Shown in pieces: positions 1 to 52,070 of a DNA stretch of 64,000 bases. The first letter of the stretch is position 1, and every line of letters starts with the position of its first letter. Source of the DNA: Polychytrium aggregatum (taxonomy: Eukaryota > Chytridiomycota > Chytridiomycetes > Polychytriales); contig NW_026516221.1 of the NCBI RefSeq assembly GCF_025602895.1, positions 124,001-188,000 of the forward strand. The letters run 5' to 3'. The position numbers were made by a program, and so were the translations under genes. The notes below the pieces were generated by a model that saw nothing but the letters and a program-made list of their open reading frames with translations, made no database searches and was not told where the DNA came from.

Positions 1-2592
1 CTACGTGGCCTTTATTGCCATCAAGACCGGCAATCCCAGCAAGCTCCTGTAAGCTACTCGACTCGTCGCAATCCCGCATTGTGTCGATGGATTCGCGCTC
101 TCACTGCATCCCTCCATCCCAACGACCTTCAATCGCGCGGCTGTCGGCATGCTCAATGTCCCATATCTCGCTCAATGTCACACTTTTGTTCTCAAGCTGG
201 TCCATGCTCGTCTCTGGCGTTACCTCTCCCCCGCATCATCCTTTCGCATGCCATGGTCCTCTGATTCTTCTCGCGCAGCTACTCACCGTGTTCCCGTTGC
301 ATTCCCACGCCGCCTTGCTCCAACACTCCACCATGTCCCGCTCGATCCTCCCCCCTCGCTGCTTCACAGATACCCAACCGACTATCTCGGAAACACCTGT
401 GGCACCAACAACACCGCCGTCAACTCCTCTCTGCTTGACATGTCGCTCAAGCCATACTCGTACTTTCTCAATCCCATCGACCTCACCACGAGCGCCCAGA
501 TCTGCATCAGCTCATGCCCGACCACCATGGTCGTCTATGCCTCGTCGACTCCAACAACGGGAACAACTTACTGCAAGTACACCGTCACGTCGGCCACGCT
601 CTCCTCGGCGATTCTGTCTGGAGACTGTGCTCCGTTTGTGTATGCATCTGAGGCCGTGCTCAACCGATGCGTGCCCACGCAACCCATTCCTGCCAGTGCG
701 CTGTCATCCCTCGGGTCCCTCAGCGTCACGACCGGCAACACCACCGTCAGCATCAACTCGCTCCTCAGCGATGGCCAGACCTTTCTCACCCAGGCCGTCA
801 GTGATCTCCAGGTGGCATACCTGTGGCTGATCGGCGGAGCCGTCGCCGCACTCATCATTGCCTTTATCTGGCTGCTGCTGCTGCGCTGGTTTGCGGGCGT
901 CTTTACCTGGCTCATCATCATCGCCACCAACGTGGTCTTTATCGGCGGCGCCATCTGGCTCTACTTTTTCTGGACCCAGACCCGCGACAGCTACAACAGC
1001 CTTAGCACCCAGTATCAGACCGACATTCTAAAGTACGAGGTCTACGGCACCATGGCAGCCTTCATCGTCGTCGCCGTTCTTGCCGTCATCCTGCTCCTGG
1101 TCACTCTGGTCCTGATCAAGCGAATCCGCATCGCGATCGAAGTCATCAAGGAGACTTCCCATGCCGTCGCAACCATGCCATTTATCTGTAAGTGCGCTGT
1201 CCAGCACTTACTCTCTGCAGCCGGGGAGGTCTGTGACATCTGCTCCCGCGAGCACCACAGCAAGGCGGAAGCACACATCCATTAACGCTGCTCCACGCCT
1301 GTTTGTGGGGGGGGGAGTCAGTGCTCTATCCATTCGTCATGTGGCTGTGCTCCCTGATCCTGCTGGCATACGGCATCATCATCATGCTGTATCTGGCCTC
1401 GCCCAGCGGCGCCGTCTCCATCACCGGTCTGGGCTTCACCCTCAGCAGCTCAAACATGACCACGTACCTGGAGTGGTTTCATCTCTTTGGCTTCCTCTGG
1501 GGATGGTACTTTATCTCGGGCTTCCAGACACTGACGATCGCCGGCGCATTTGCGGCATACTACTGGACCCTCGACAAGTCGCACACCCCTCCGCGCAAGC
1601 TGCTGGGCTCCATCTATCGGGCCTTCCGCTACCACCTCGGCAGTATTGCTCTGGGATCGATGCTCATCGCTCTCGTCCAGATCCTCCGGATCCTGTTTGC
1701 GTATCTCGGCAAGCAGGCCAAGGCCACACAGAACAAGGTGCTCCAGTACATCTTTGCCTGCATCGGATGCTGCCTGGCTCTGGTCAAGAGGATCCTGCAG
1801 TTCATCAGCAAGAACGCATACATCCACATTGCCGTCCGCGGCACATCCTTTTGCAGCGCATGCTCTTCGGCCTGTGGATTGATCATCCGCAACGCCCTCC
1901 GAGTCGTGGCCGTCACGTTTGTGTCCGAGTTCATCATGCTCCTGAGCACCGTCGTGATCACGGGCTTGACCGGCTTTATTTCGTACATTCTTCTCGGGTG
2001 GAAGGGCAGCTACCTGAACCTGCAGATTCCGCTGGTGCCCGTTATCTTCATTGCCATCGAGGCCTTTATCATCTCGCTGGTTTTCATGTCGGTCTATTCT
2101 GCTGGCATCAACGCCATCTTCATGTGCTTCCTGGAGGATTCGGAGCGCAACGATGGATCGCCCACGCGGCCGTACTACATGTCCGAGGCCCTGCAGAGGA
2201 TCACATCATCGCAAAACACCGAGGAAAAGCCGGTAAGCTTCGCACACTCGGTTGCAGAGTCGCCCCCTGTGTGCGTCCGCATATTGCCCACTCGAGCGAT
2301 GCACTGCAGCAGCACTGTTACCCCCCGTTTCTCACGCCGAACGCCGTTGTTCTCGACTCAACTCTGGCTTGCACTTGGGTTCGGGTGGATCCAGAAGAAG
2401 GCGGTATGTATTAAAAGCAGAGGCTCAATGCGATTCCACATATCCGCACCACTGTTGGCACCTGCTACGGCTTCCCGACCTCTCCTCCAACGAAAACTAA
2501 CGCCGCTGCGCTGATCCCATTCCCAACCACAGACTGGACGCAAGGCGCGCAAGATCCACGATTCCAGAGAGATGGTCGAGGAGGAGTACTAG
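1..2592 (+). CDS. Choline transporter-like protein (SLC44/CTL family), copy A, 5' truncated by window edge
   Basis: Multi-pass membrane protein of the choline-transporter-like family, expected to move choline or related amines across the plasma or an internal membrane. Exons read as 1-48 (end of exon 1), 370-1187, 1322-2232 and 2533-2592, giving 611 codons in one open frame before TAG. The exon 1 residues YVAFIAIKTGNPSKLL align with LFVASIGFETGDPRRLL of the complete copy downstream, which shows that the window opens inside exon 1. After the PTDYLGNTCG motif comes a Cys-rich extracellular loop, then many hydrophobic segments, including WLIGGAVAALIIAFIWLLLL and a YLEWFHLFGFLWGWYF block typical of the family. 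Intron positions and phases match copy B exactly, so the pair is a tandem duplication. Family call confident; substrate inferred. Confidence 0.85.
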
Positions 2593-2594
2593 TG

Positions 2595-3210
2595 GCGTTC
2601 CAATAAAAAACGGGACACCCCGGATTTTGAGTATTGATCAATTTTAGTCATCCAAGACCAACGTCTGCTGGCTATGGCCATTCTGTGATGCGGGATTATG
2701 CCCTCATTCATAGCCTGAGAAACGTCGCCTCCATATTTAGTGTGTCCAAGAGCACCATTCGCCGCTGGCACTCCGAGACCAGTGCAACGACCCACGAATG
2801 GGCCACAGGAGGCGCCAAGTGGTCGTCAGCAGGATGTGCAGGCGAGTCACTGACCAAGCACCAAGGGAGACCGATATTGTGATTGCCTTTGGGAATGCCT
2901 CGTGGAAACAGGGGAAGCGATATATATCCAGCCCATGGAGACTCAGGTTCGCCAATACTTTGAACAATTCATCCACCACCAGAGACGTCAAGGTGTGCTC
3001 GGTGAACGATTTCAACACCTCCCAGGTGTGCTCACAGTGCCGGGAACCCAAGTGACCTGAGAAGGCCGAGTACCCTGATACCGATACACCATGGAGCTGT
3101 CCAGAGAGTCGAGTGGATGCACCACAGAGAGATTGCCAACCATGGCGGGAAATAATTACACGGCCCGCCCACCGAGACCTGTCCCGTTTCTTTCTGGATT
3201 GACTGTAGAG
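2595..3210 (+). mobile_element. Fanzor-derived short transposon, copy A (internally deleted)
   Basis: About 0.6-kb element starting two bases after the SLC44-A stop codon. Its left end has AAAACGGGACACC near 2607 and its right end has the inverted counterpart CTGTCCCGTTTCTT near 3180, so the ends are imperfect inverted repeats. A first coding block (about 2690-2780) reads as a helix-turn-helix, SLRNVASIFSVSKSTIRRWH. A second (about 2870-3055) reads IVIAFGNASWKQGK, then FNTSQVCSQC, the arrangement seen before and in the zinc finger of Fanzor/TnpB nucleases, and then meets a stop at 3053. The RuvC core between the blocks and the second Cys pair after them are missing, so no active nuclease is encoded. 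Closely related to copy B at 51.2-51.9 kb. Fanzor assignment is by motif, not by database search. Confidence 0.65.
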
Positions 3211-29355: not shown

Positions 29356-30578
29356 GATGTCGTTGATGATGGCACGATCGATCGATCGATCGATCGATCA
29401 TGTCGCCGCGAAACCCGAGATCACTCCCAGCCCAGAGCGAGAGCAGAACAGCGCTCTCGGCATCTCCTCGGTGTCTCCTCGGTGTCTCCTCGTTGGAGTG
29501 GAAGTTGGGACTCTGCCGGCGGACCGCTCAGTTGCCTCGCACCGCTCCAGGACGGCTGTTGCTCTGGGACTCGAATATACCCACACATTGCAATCATGTC
29601 CAAACAGTGTGTCCCAGGAAGCAGCGGTTTGCTGGGTACTTTGAACAGCGCAGGTCGATTGTGGAGACTGGAGAGCAACCCACGGTCTTCACTCAGAGGC
29701 GATCTGTTGAATCGCATGTGGTTCTGTTGGACCCATTCTCATCCTAAACCATGCTGGCATACGGGATCGCGAGGCCGTCCCATGTGTAAAGTGTATGGCG
29801 AAACATGGACTCGGGCAGCATGATCATGACCACACCGCAGCACGACCCGATAATTTCGGCAGGACTGTTTACGCCATTTTTTGCGTTGGCTGTTGTTTAT
29901 TGCTTCGTTACTGGCCGTTTTGATTGATTCGGCGTTGTTCATTCCTGCACCCATCACTCTACTGTTTTTGGTTTCTGGTTGTTCTTCCTGTTGCAATTGT
30001 TTTGTGTTCACTTGGAAACGTCTCCGACTGATAGGTAACCCCGTGACCAGTCGTGGTAGGGTTAGGGTAGAGCACACGCGTGTCTGTGCGCGCCTGCTGT
30101 CGCACAGCCGCGTGGCCGAAAATAGCCGACGCGCCCGTCGCCACCGGCCAAGCGGCGTCCGTTTCGGTCTCTTTGAGCTGCTGGGCCGCTGGGGTCTGCT
30201 TGCGTTTTCTTTTTCCCTGTGGCATCATCATCCTCGGGTCGCCTCCTCGGGTCGCCTCCTCCGCCTGCAGCCCCATTCTCCTTGCTCGACCTCCCTGTCT
30301 GGGACGTCGGCGGTCCGTCTGTTTCTGTCTCTACCGTCTCTTCCGTTTCTGTTTCCGCCATCCGTCGCCCAACCGAGCGGCGCTCTCAGAGATTGTCTTG
30401 AGTCGTCTGTGCCTCCTCGGTCTGCATCCCTTGCTCGCCACAACCGCCCTTGCCGCCGCTGCTTCTTGGCCTGCGGCCTCAGCAATCAACTGCCCCGACC
30501 ACCGGTTACTCACCCGCCCGGTCTGACGAGTGCTGCCCTGCCATCACCAACTTTGTCGCCAAGTTCTCCCATTGCGCC
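29356..30578. other. 1.2-kb intergenic region upstream of the Sch9-like kinase
   Basis: Contains a (GATC)n microsatellite at about 29378-29400, three CTCCTCGGTGT repeats near 29462-29492, and a long pyrimidine-rich leader (30.2-30.5 kb) probably belonging to the 5' UTR or promoter of the kinase gene. No supported gene or RNA found. Confidence 0.45.
29376..29400. repeat. (GATC)n microsatellite
   Basis: Six GATC units just upstream of the mitochondrial-protein gene (minus strand), in its likely promoter. Confidence 0.85.
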
Positions 30579-35182: not shown

Positions 35183-35420
35183 TGCAGCGCTCCCAAAACA
35201 AAACGAGACACCCTGTTTCGAGCCAGGCTAAGTTATTTTCTGGTCCTGAATACACACCCATTTACCATTCACCATTGTGTAACAGTGTGCCCACAGTGTC
35301 TGTTGGCTAATCGACATGAAAAAGCCGGGTATCTTGATGCCGAGCAGCCATGGAGCTGCCCGGAGGCTGTACAGCGGACGGGTTGCTTTGCTACATCGTA
35401 GTATGCAACGGCCATCGGCT
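35183..35420 (+). mobile_element. Fanzor-element fragment C
   Basis: Degenerate relic. Its left edge (CCCAAAACAAAACGAGACACCC near 35190) matches the left end of the element at 2595. The stretch 35285-35375 matches the zinc-finger region of the other copies (GTGTGCCCACAGTGT, then GGTATCTTGATGCCGA and CCATGGAGCTGCC). Nearly all coding sequence between is lost, and no right end is recognised. Orientation inferred from both matches. Boundaries approximate. Confidence 0.5.
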
Positions 35421-51216: not shown

Positions 51217-51858
51217 TTACAGTCTATCCAGAAAGAAACGGGACAGTCACTTCCTGGCTTCAGATGTCTGAACCCCGCTGACTGACTGTAGGCCCCAGAG
51301 GGCAAGCCATGCGATTTTTTCCCGTCCTGGTTGGCAATCGAGTGGTTTTGGTTGGTTTCGGGAGCACAGTCTTGAATACACCCGGTCGATCTCCCGTGGC
51401 GATGATCGACTGGCATACCGAGATCATGTTCCTTGAGGCATTGATGTCTCGATCCCACAGCGTATGGCAGCTTGCACAGCTCCGGACAAAGTGTGGTTTC
51501 TCGATATCAAGATACTCGGGTGACTCAAGTCGCTTGAATTCCCGACAATGTGAGCACACCTGGGATGTGTTGAACTCGTTCACCGAGCACACATGGATCT
51601 TGGAGACGGATCGGTCTGGTGGTCGTCTCTGGTGGTGGATGAACTGCTCAAAGTATTTGGCGAACCTGAGTCTCCTGGGACTGGATGCATATCCCTTCCC
51701 TTGCTTCCACGTGGCATTCCCAAAGGCAATCACCATTTCGGTCTCCCTTGGACATACTTGCTTGGCCATGAATGCGATGAGTGGGTAGGTGTATTCAGGT
51801 CTCGAAGAAGCGACAGTCCAAGCTCAAATCGGAATGTCCCATTTCATTTTGGAATCGC
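51217..51858 (-). mobile_element. Fanzor-derived short transposon, copy B
   Basis: About 640-bp minus-strand relative of the element at 2595. Its right end (51217-51245 on the plus strand, CCAGAAAGAAACGGGACAG) matches copy A's right end, and its left end (51835-51856) reads, on the minus strand, TTCCAAAATGAAATGGGACA. The ORF 51769-51260 encodes METs upstream of VIAFGNATWKQGKGY, then CSVNEFNTSQVCSHC and a second pair CASC, followed by WDRDINASRNM. The two Cys pairs form the Fanzor/TnpB zinc ribbon, and the Asp in RDINA corresponds to the third RuvC catalytic acid of that family. The N-terminal HTH and the first RuvC motif are absent, so it cannot be active alone. It keeps a different part of the parent gene from copy A. 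Confidence 0.7.
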
Positions 51859-51944
51859 TGTAATATCATTTTCTGTGCTGCCACACAGCCCTGTGCACTG
51901 TTTTTCTTCCTTCCTCGCTGCAAGTGAGCAGATGAATCGATCGA

Positions 51945-52070
51945 CCTGCCGCATCGAGACATCAATGCCAGTCGATCATCGCCACAGGAGATCGACCGAG
52001 TGTATTCAAGACCATGCTCCTGAAACCGACGAAAACAAAGCGATTGCTGGCCCTGACTAGACTGGAGTGA
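51945..52070 (+). mobile_element. Fanzor-element fragment D (opposite orientation to copy B)
   Basis: About 125 bp matching the RDINA end of copy B's coding region but on the plus strand: GAGACATCAATGCC followed by AGTCGATCATCGCCAC and AGATCGACCGAGTGTATTC. Relative to B it lacks 25 nt between two ATGCC copies, which shifts the frame. It lies in the 3' flank of the carboxypeptidase gene, less than 100 bp from the left end of copy B. Confidence 0.55.

Follow-up and report, generated by a model that had tools for sequence, protein, structure and literature searches.

Short ghosts of a Tc1/mariner-type transposon that also carries Fanzor1, with an oriented TTA target and possible repair scars at left ends

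Two short elements with inverted ends, here called copy A and copy B, lie in the window (the whole 64,000-nt stretch of DNA analysed), and the question they raise is which transposon they come from and what has kept or spread such shortened copies. The earlier note had placed them at 2595-3210 and 51217-51858. Both were real, with TA on either side and inverted ends, and their limits were moved to 2592-3205 and 51220-51860. The inverted ends of the two copies were imperfect and had the core AAACGGGACA in common. The window was duplicated in a near-identical second contig (C376), which contained copy A at 100% and copy B at 99% identity. The features were as follows.

2592-3205, + strand: copy A, element with TA on both sides and inverted ends
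2590-2591, no strand: TA flank left of copy A; the insertion falls on the stop codon of a frame lying upstream (TAC TAG)
2592-2618, + strand: left inverted end of copy A, GTGGCGTTCCAATAAAAAACGGGACAC; core as in the full-length left end, CAGGCAATCCAATAAAAAACGGGACAC
2682-2771, + strand: remnant of the transposase HTH in copy A, residues 12-41 (80% identity, E 9.8e-10, tblastn)
2801-3049, + strand: Fanzor remnant in copy A with only the first Cys pair, matching residues 697-787 of the frame of 849 codons (57% identity, E 3.8e-24)
3179-3205, + strand: right inverted end of copy A, CTGTCCCGTTTCTTTCTGGATTGACTG
3206-3207, no strand: TA flank right of copy A
51220-51860, - strand: copy B, element with TA on both sides and inverted ends
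51218-51219, no strand: TA flank at the right end of copy B
51220-51247, - strand: right inverted end of copy B
51248-51355, - strand: region of copy B between the Fanzor homology and the right end, a candidate omegaRNA scaffold; kept in the B family and mostly missing from copy A, structure not significant
51260-51769, - strand: open frame of copy B (169 aa), in which 51356-51751 is homologous to the C-terminus of Fanzor and includes the zinc ribbon and the final RuvC Asp
51833-51860, - strand: left inverted end of copy B, with ATTA before it
51861-51862, no strand: TA flank at the left end of copy B

The two copies retained different coding parts. Copy A had been described as an HTH and the first Cys pair of one nuclease gene, and both parts were present, with 30 aa of HTH joined to the Fanzor 697-787 segment. 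The HTH, however, aligned to residues 12-41 of a transposase, and its assignment to Fanzor was therefore rejected; it is the N-terminus of the transposase encoded in the same parent element. For copy B, the earlier description was confirmed, as Fanzor residues 717-849 were retained at 60% identity, including both Cys pairs and the Asp of RDIN. The Fanzor/TnpB-like zinc ribbon of copy B was also borne out by the PF07282 match of its frame (1.3e-10).

The full-length element predicted to exist elsewhere was sought in the 64.7-Mb eukaryotic genome by means of the ends. The core AAACGGGACA was found 871 times in forward and 813 times in reverse orientation, compared with 85 and 78 times for a reversed-sequence control, and many copies with the same ends were recovered, among them longer ones of ~3.7 kb. 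These abundant parents encode a Tc1/mariner-type (IS630) transposase and a 788-aa Fanzor1-like nuclease, so that the supposed Fanzor element does bear Fanzor and is actually a transposase and Fanzor composite. The parent sample was made up of 15 copies whose paired ends lay about 3.4-3.7 kb apart, and in these a 310-aa transposase frame was followed on the same strand by the Fanzor-like frame (in L021, the reference copy, 849 codons long, or 788 when counted from the likely start MPPKRK). The transposase passed the NCBIfam cut-off for NF033545 (IS630, E 3.6e-36) and matched Pfam DDE_3 (PF13358, E 7.5e-24); in the L021 frame a D-x34-E spacing was counted by eye, which we take to be the DD34E of Tc1/mariner (IS630). 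TA was present at both ends in 40 of 50 paired copies, a Tc1/mariner feature.

Assignment of the nuclease to Fanzor1 was based on several sources. The L021 protein matched PF07282, the zinc ribbon of TnpB/Fanzor (E 7.1e-9), and a Fanzor profile found as its best PDB matches SpuFz1 (Spizellomyces Fanzor1, E 0.0017) and GtFz1 (Guillardia Fanzor1, E 0.08), in the C-terminal part only; a PDB search with the single sequence gave no match. The C-terminal motif given for Fanzor1, D-X(125,275)-[TS][TS]XX-C4 zinc finger-X(5,50)-RD (PMC3627910), was present as D537, TSQVC at 716, C4 and RD at 757-758. DPG in RuvC and TDG in WED are further marks of Fanzor1 (PMC10711439), and IDPG at 536 and TDG at 487 were found in the L021 protein and were invariant in five aligned sequences, one of which was from the older subfamily. 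Fanzor1 is also defined by residence in a eukaryotic transposon other than IS607, and here an IS630/Tc1-type transposase was found in the same element. The AlphaFold model (pLDDT 39) was unusable for the RuvC-II glutamate or the whole fold.

Many parents have kept their frames. Among the 15, the whole Fanzor frame was intact in six, the whole transposase frame in five and both in three, and dN/dS pooled over the 15 copies was 0.31 for Fanzor and 0.19 for the transposase. In the young subfamily, 51 of the 57 places spanning all 788 residues among the matches listed were stop-free (both contigs of a site being counted), and in the older subfamily, which is closer to copy B, 26 of 89 rows among the matches listed sat in stop-free frames of at least 890 aa. 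Copies A and B are thus almost certainly internally deleted, non-autonomous ghosts of a Tc1/mariner-type (IS630) transposon with Fanzor1 downstream of the transposase.

The ghosts differed in number. Copy A occurred whole at one locus, where it was identical in two contigs, and its other matches were partial (40 of 1374 candidates scored). The copy B family was found end to end, at 88-100% identity, in 31 of the 40 places scored, B itself and second contigs being counted, and at least 16 B-type copies, B included, sat in different flanks. A third type of ~0.3 kb (276 bp between outer core edges) was present at 42 places (49 rows, seven places being seen on both strands), and the three such copies that were fetched retained Fanzor codons 813-849 and the right end. 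The proposal of MITE-like, non-autonomous derivatives therefore holds for B and for the ~0.3-kb family, which combine parental ends and internal deletion with several sites, and for A it holds as far as a single locus allows.

Insertion of these elements was oriented. In the young subfamily, T preceded TA at 190 of 198 standard left ends, whereas A followed TA at 57 of 301 standard right ends (19%; Fisher p 1.6e-73, with second contigs of one site counted as independent). The 40 paired copies gave T in 16/17 and A in 1/17 for the young type, and T in 15/23 and A in 7/23 for the others. A transposase acting symmetrically at TA should give similar shares of T and A, and the gap observed therefore points to oriented insertion. 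The T belongs to the target and not to the element, since a cytochrome P450 frame (E 1.4e-11) reads through a single TTA when the flanks of one full-length copy (L020) are joined. In Spizellomyces, the left end is preceded by a conserved CA, and CATA was measured as the TAM (PMC10432273); by the same logic, TTA would be the TAM of the Fanzor described here. An occupied site offers GTA before the right flank, as the last base of the element is G, so that a requirement for TTA would separate empty from occupied sites. The oriented TTA could instead be a property of the transposase complex. At L020 (G000:C8, insertion near 68475) the cytochrome P450 frame is broken by the full-length element, and both the insertion and its altered left end were also seen in a second contig, C135. 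Another copy, L014, adjoins the end of a related mariner family (CCAGCGCGCCCAAACCAAAACGGAACACC), which, if devoid of Fanzor, is a possible Fanzor-free control.

The Fanzor guide RNA of Spizellomyces is encoded in the stretch before the right end (PMC10432273). The corresponding stretch was kept in B and in the three aligned ~0.3-kb copies and was mostly lost from A. Right ends were aligned from 24 of the 32 that were not of type 1. Single-strand folds of the stretch were not significant (z -0.25 to -0.93), the covariation term of the consensus fold was -0.07, pairing of the ends was not significant (p about 0.07-0.08), and an Rfam search of L021 and L059 gave no match. As the stretch has no significant structure of its own, an omegaRNA read from the right end and guiding Fanzor is assumed here, by analogy with Spizellomyces.

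These features suggest a way in which ghosts and parents might be retained together. From its family, the transposase of full-length copies would be expected to cut and paste DNA between inverted ends at TA sites, that of ghosts included. Fanzor would be guided to the right flank by an RNA transcribed out of the right end and on into that flank. An empty site would be recognised because T-TA precedes the flank there, and an occupied site would be spared because the last base of the element before TA is G, giving GTA. An empty allele, once cut, would be repaired from the occupied one, with the result that copies would be retained or copied. SpuFz1 cuts 16-21 bases beyond the TAM (PMC10432273), and on a cut empty allele this would leave a terminal tail of at most about 20 right-flank bases, to be removed before repair can copy in the left end. 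Homing thus predicts that imperfect removal of this tail leaves a few right-flank bases, and that such remnants occur at left ends only.

Left ends were therefore compared with the right flanks of the same copies. The 62 pairs of ends were reduced to 50 by dropping 12 (eleven on the wrong strand or mis-paired, and one allele), and to 40 by excluding ten copies that lacked TA at the left end (six) or the right end (four); the pairing rule left out L027 and a ~0.3-kb copy inside L056. Most of the 40 copies had plain TA and a standard left end. Deviant left ends that matched their own right flank beyond TA were found in L020 (TCCCGC), L015 (GTGCAATC) and L025 (CAGCGTGCCAA, where the right flank itself resembles the end of a related element), and in L082 eight bases matched with one mismatch. 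Clear tails rest on these four of the 40 copies. Matches of a few bases were seen in L075, L045, L056 (of which the left flank is the end of another copy) and copy A, whereas the left ends of L009, L038 and L062 deviated without a right-flank match. The tail excess summed over the 40 copies was 28, compared with a permuted mean of 3.5 (0 of 50,000 permutations); without L025 and L015 it was reached in 1 of 20,000 permutations, and when L075 was also removed in 32 of 20,000. The TA of L015, L020, L025 and L082 was set by hand in one tail test, and a repeat by rule only gave the same result. The TA of L017 was misread in the tail test, to which this copy contributes no excess, and was corrected for the T and A flank counts. 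In the mirror test of right ends against left flanks in the 40 copies the excess was 0; only 4/40 right ends deviated from the standard, and because right ends vary so rarely this test has little power.

We tentatively read the left-end tails as footprints of a working Fanzor that cut the empty allele next to TTA, with repair from the occupied allele, the ghosts supplying guides and riding this homing in trans. For homing as such, that is a Fanzor-guided cut of the empty site and repair from the occupied allele, the sequences leave us evenly divided, and the whole explanation, in which ghosts of a transposase and Fanzor1 element are combined with RNA-guided homing and imperfect repair, is in our view probable. 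No empty allele was found for 14 joined sites (40 of 62 candidates scored), and six sites with a second contig were filled there also, so homing was not seen between haplotypes.

The same data can be read with Fanzor as a passenger, the elements being ordinary mariner MITEs and their parents, the TTA arising from an asymmetric complex of transposase and ends, and the tails being aberrant, longer target duplications. Left and right inverted ends do differ outside the AAACGGGACA core, which makes an asymmetric complex possible, and the predominance of plain TA and standard left ends among the 40 copies is what this reading expects. The constraint on Fanzor (dN/dS 0.31, 51/57 places stop-free among the matches listed) is less easily accommodated, and a longer duplication alone explains neither the loss of about 3-12 outer bases from the left ends nor the fact that junctions in several copies fall on short words shared between the sequences; under this rival the tails would have to combine a longer target duplication with loss of outer left-end bases. 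The lack of a mirror case at right ends also speaks against it, although right ends rarely vary. On balance the passenger reading is possible but rather doubtful.

Two other readings concern the ghosts themselves. That A and B are dead relics without mobility in trans would agree with the single locus of A, identical in two contigs among the 40 of 1374 candidates scored, and with its loss of most of the right-end region, but the 31 end-to-end places of the B family and its 16 or more copies in different flanks make this very improbable. The other is that the C-terminal Fanzor fragment of B-type ghosts works as a small protein, e.g. a competitor of full Fanzor, and that the ghosts are kept for this reason. 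In 16 copies the fragment had a pooled dN/dS of 0.19 (0.39 for singletons), eight of the 16 kept a 127-codon frame, and allelic differences in 11 pairs comprised 41 synonymous, 27 non-synonymous and four stop changes. The coding part also varied less than the ends, with 64 singletons compared with 100 expected at the noncoding rate and 10 indels in 378 nt compared with 27 in 235 nt of noncoding sequence, a deficit that would fit a small working protein. Amino-acid-changing singletons, however, were only weakly depleted (40 of 64 in 19 copies were non-synonymous or stop, where the noncoding spectrum predicted a fraction of 0.746; P 0.02). Moreover, in 14 same-site pairs of B-type and related copies (in one of which, L003/L004, the same place had been retrieved twice and showed no differences), 129 of 8,905 sites differed within elements and 42 of 20,287 in flanks, about seven times more, and 108 of the 129 were variants that also occurred at two or more other loci. 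This pattern suggests exchange of sequence between non-allelic copies, or else a mixing of repeats in the assembly. Through such conversion, coding parents can contribute an excess of synonymous changes, and a low dN/dS in ghosts can thus arise without a working small protein, which we regard as unlikely. The same-site pairs in two contigs with this excess of differences inside the elements lie among L039-L088.

Excision of IS200/IS605 elements by peel-and-paste is scarless. TnpB of these bacterial elements is reported to act as a retention and gene-drive device, its guide recording the insertion site so that a site without the element is cut (PMC11870625), and the idea proposed here is the same; the bacterial elements use a peel-and-paste transposase, whereas here the transposase is of the DDE type and, if our reading is right, repair scars are visible. 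Fanzor was shown to be an RNA-guided nuclease in PMC10432273, where its biological role is called unknown.

Among eukaryotic relatives, mariner elements with Fanzor1 have been on record since 2013 (PMC3627910), and ghosts lacking Fanzor were added from Spizellomyces in 2023 (PMC10432273). SPu-1 and ghost Spu-1 of Spizellomyces punctatus resemble the present elements in inverted ends of ~30 nt and TA duplications (PMC10432273, PMC3627910). SPu-1 likewise has Fanzor1-bearing copies, together with ~550-nt copies without the Fanzor frame, and ghost Spu-1 keeps the right-end region as the B-type ghosts do (PMC10432273). Conserved bases before the left end of SPu-1 form part of the TAM (CATA), where the motif here is TTA. 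According to PMC10432273, a transposase was not found between the ends of SPu-1, whereas the element described here encodes one; B-type ghosts, unlike ghost Spu-1, hold a piece of Fanzor coding sequence; and right-flank tails at left ends, as seen here, are not a feature given for SPu-1. Copies are apparently more numerous here, with 301 exact young right ends (both contigs counted) compared with 42 + 134 loci for SPu-1 (PMC10432273). PGv-1 and PUl-1 also combine a mariner-like transposase and Fanzor1 in one element with TA duplications (PMC3627910). PGv-1, however, is a single-copy viral element with an extra endonuclease gene, unlike the multi-copy element here, and no ghost families are described for PGv-1 or PUl-1 in the excerpts of that paper.

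Ghosts and mariner-Fanzor1 composites are thus already known, and it is the oriented TTA and the left-end scars that go further. Among the best literature matches by title and start of abstract, mostly open-access papers, there was no report of end scars at Fanzor elements. With transposase and Fanzor in one multi-copy element, stop-free copies, ghosts, TTA and scars, the homing or retention idea becomes directly testable; if it is true, Fanzor may help a transposon to persist at its genomic sites or to spread.

Further remnants were noted in the window and beyond. A decayed young-type ghost occupies 29543-29773, with Fanzor C-terminal pieces (29613-29700) and, in front of a TA, a degenerate right end (CCGTCCCATGTGTAAAGTG). 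A decayed B-type left end (TTGCAGCGCTCCCAAAACAAAACGAGACACCC) lies with further ghost-like pieces at 35183-35350, where no matching right end was seen. About 100 bases from the left end of copy B, on the opposite strand, a loose Fanzor C-terminal fragment (51965-52047) was 89% identical to L006. Elsewhere in the genome, truncated older-type Fanzor genes (e.g. C383:46367, C392:21757 and C46:676963) start near residue 222-241 of a 493-aa query; this group includes many open frames of about 290-315 aa and looks like another ghost family.
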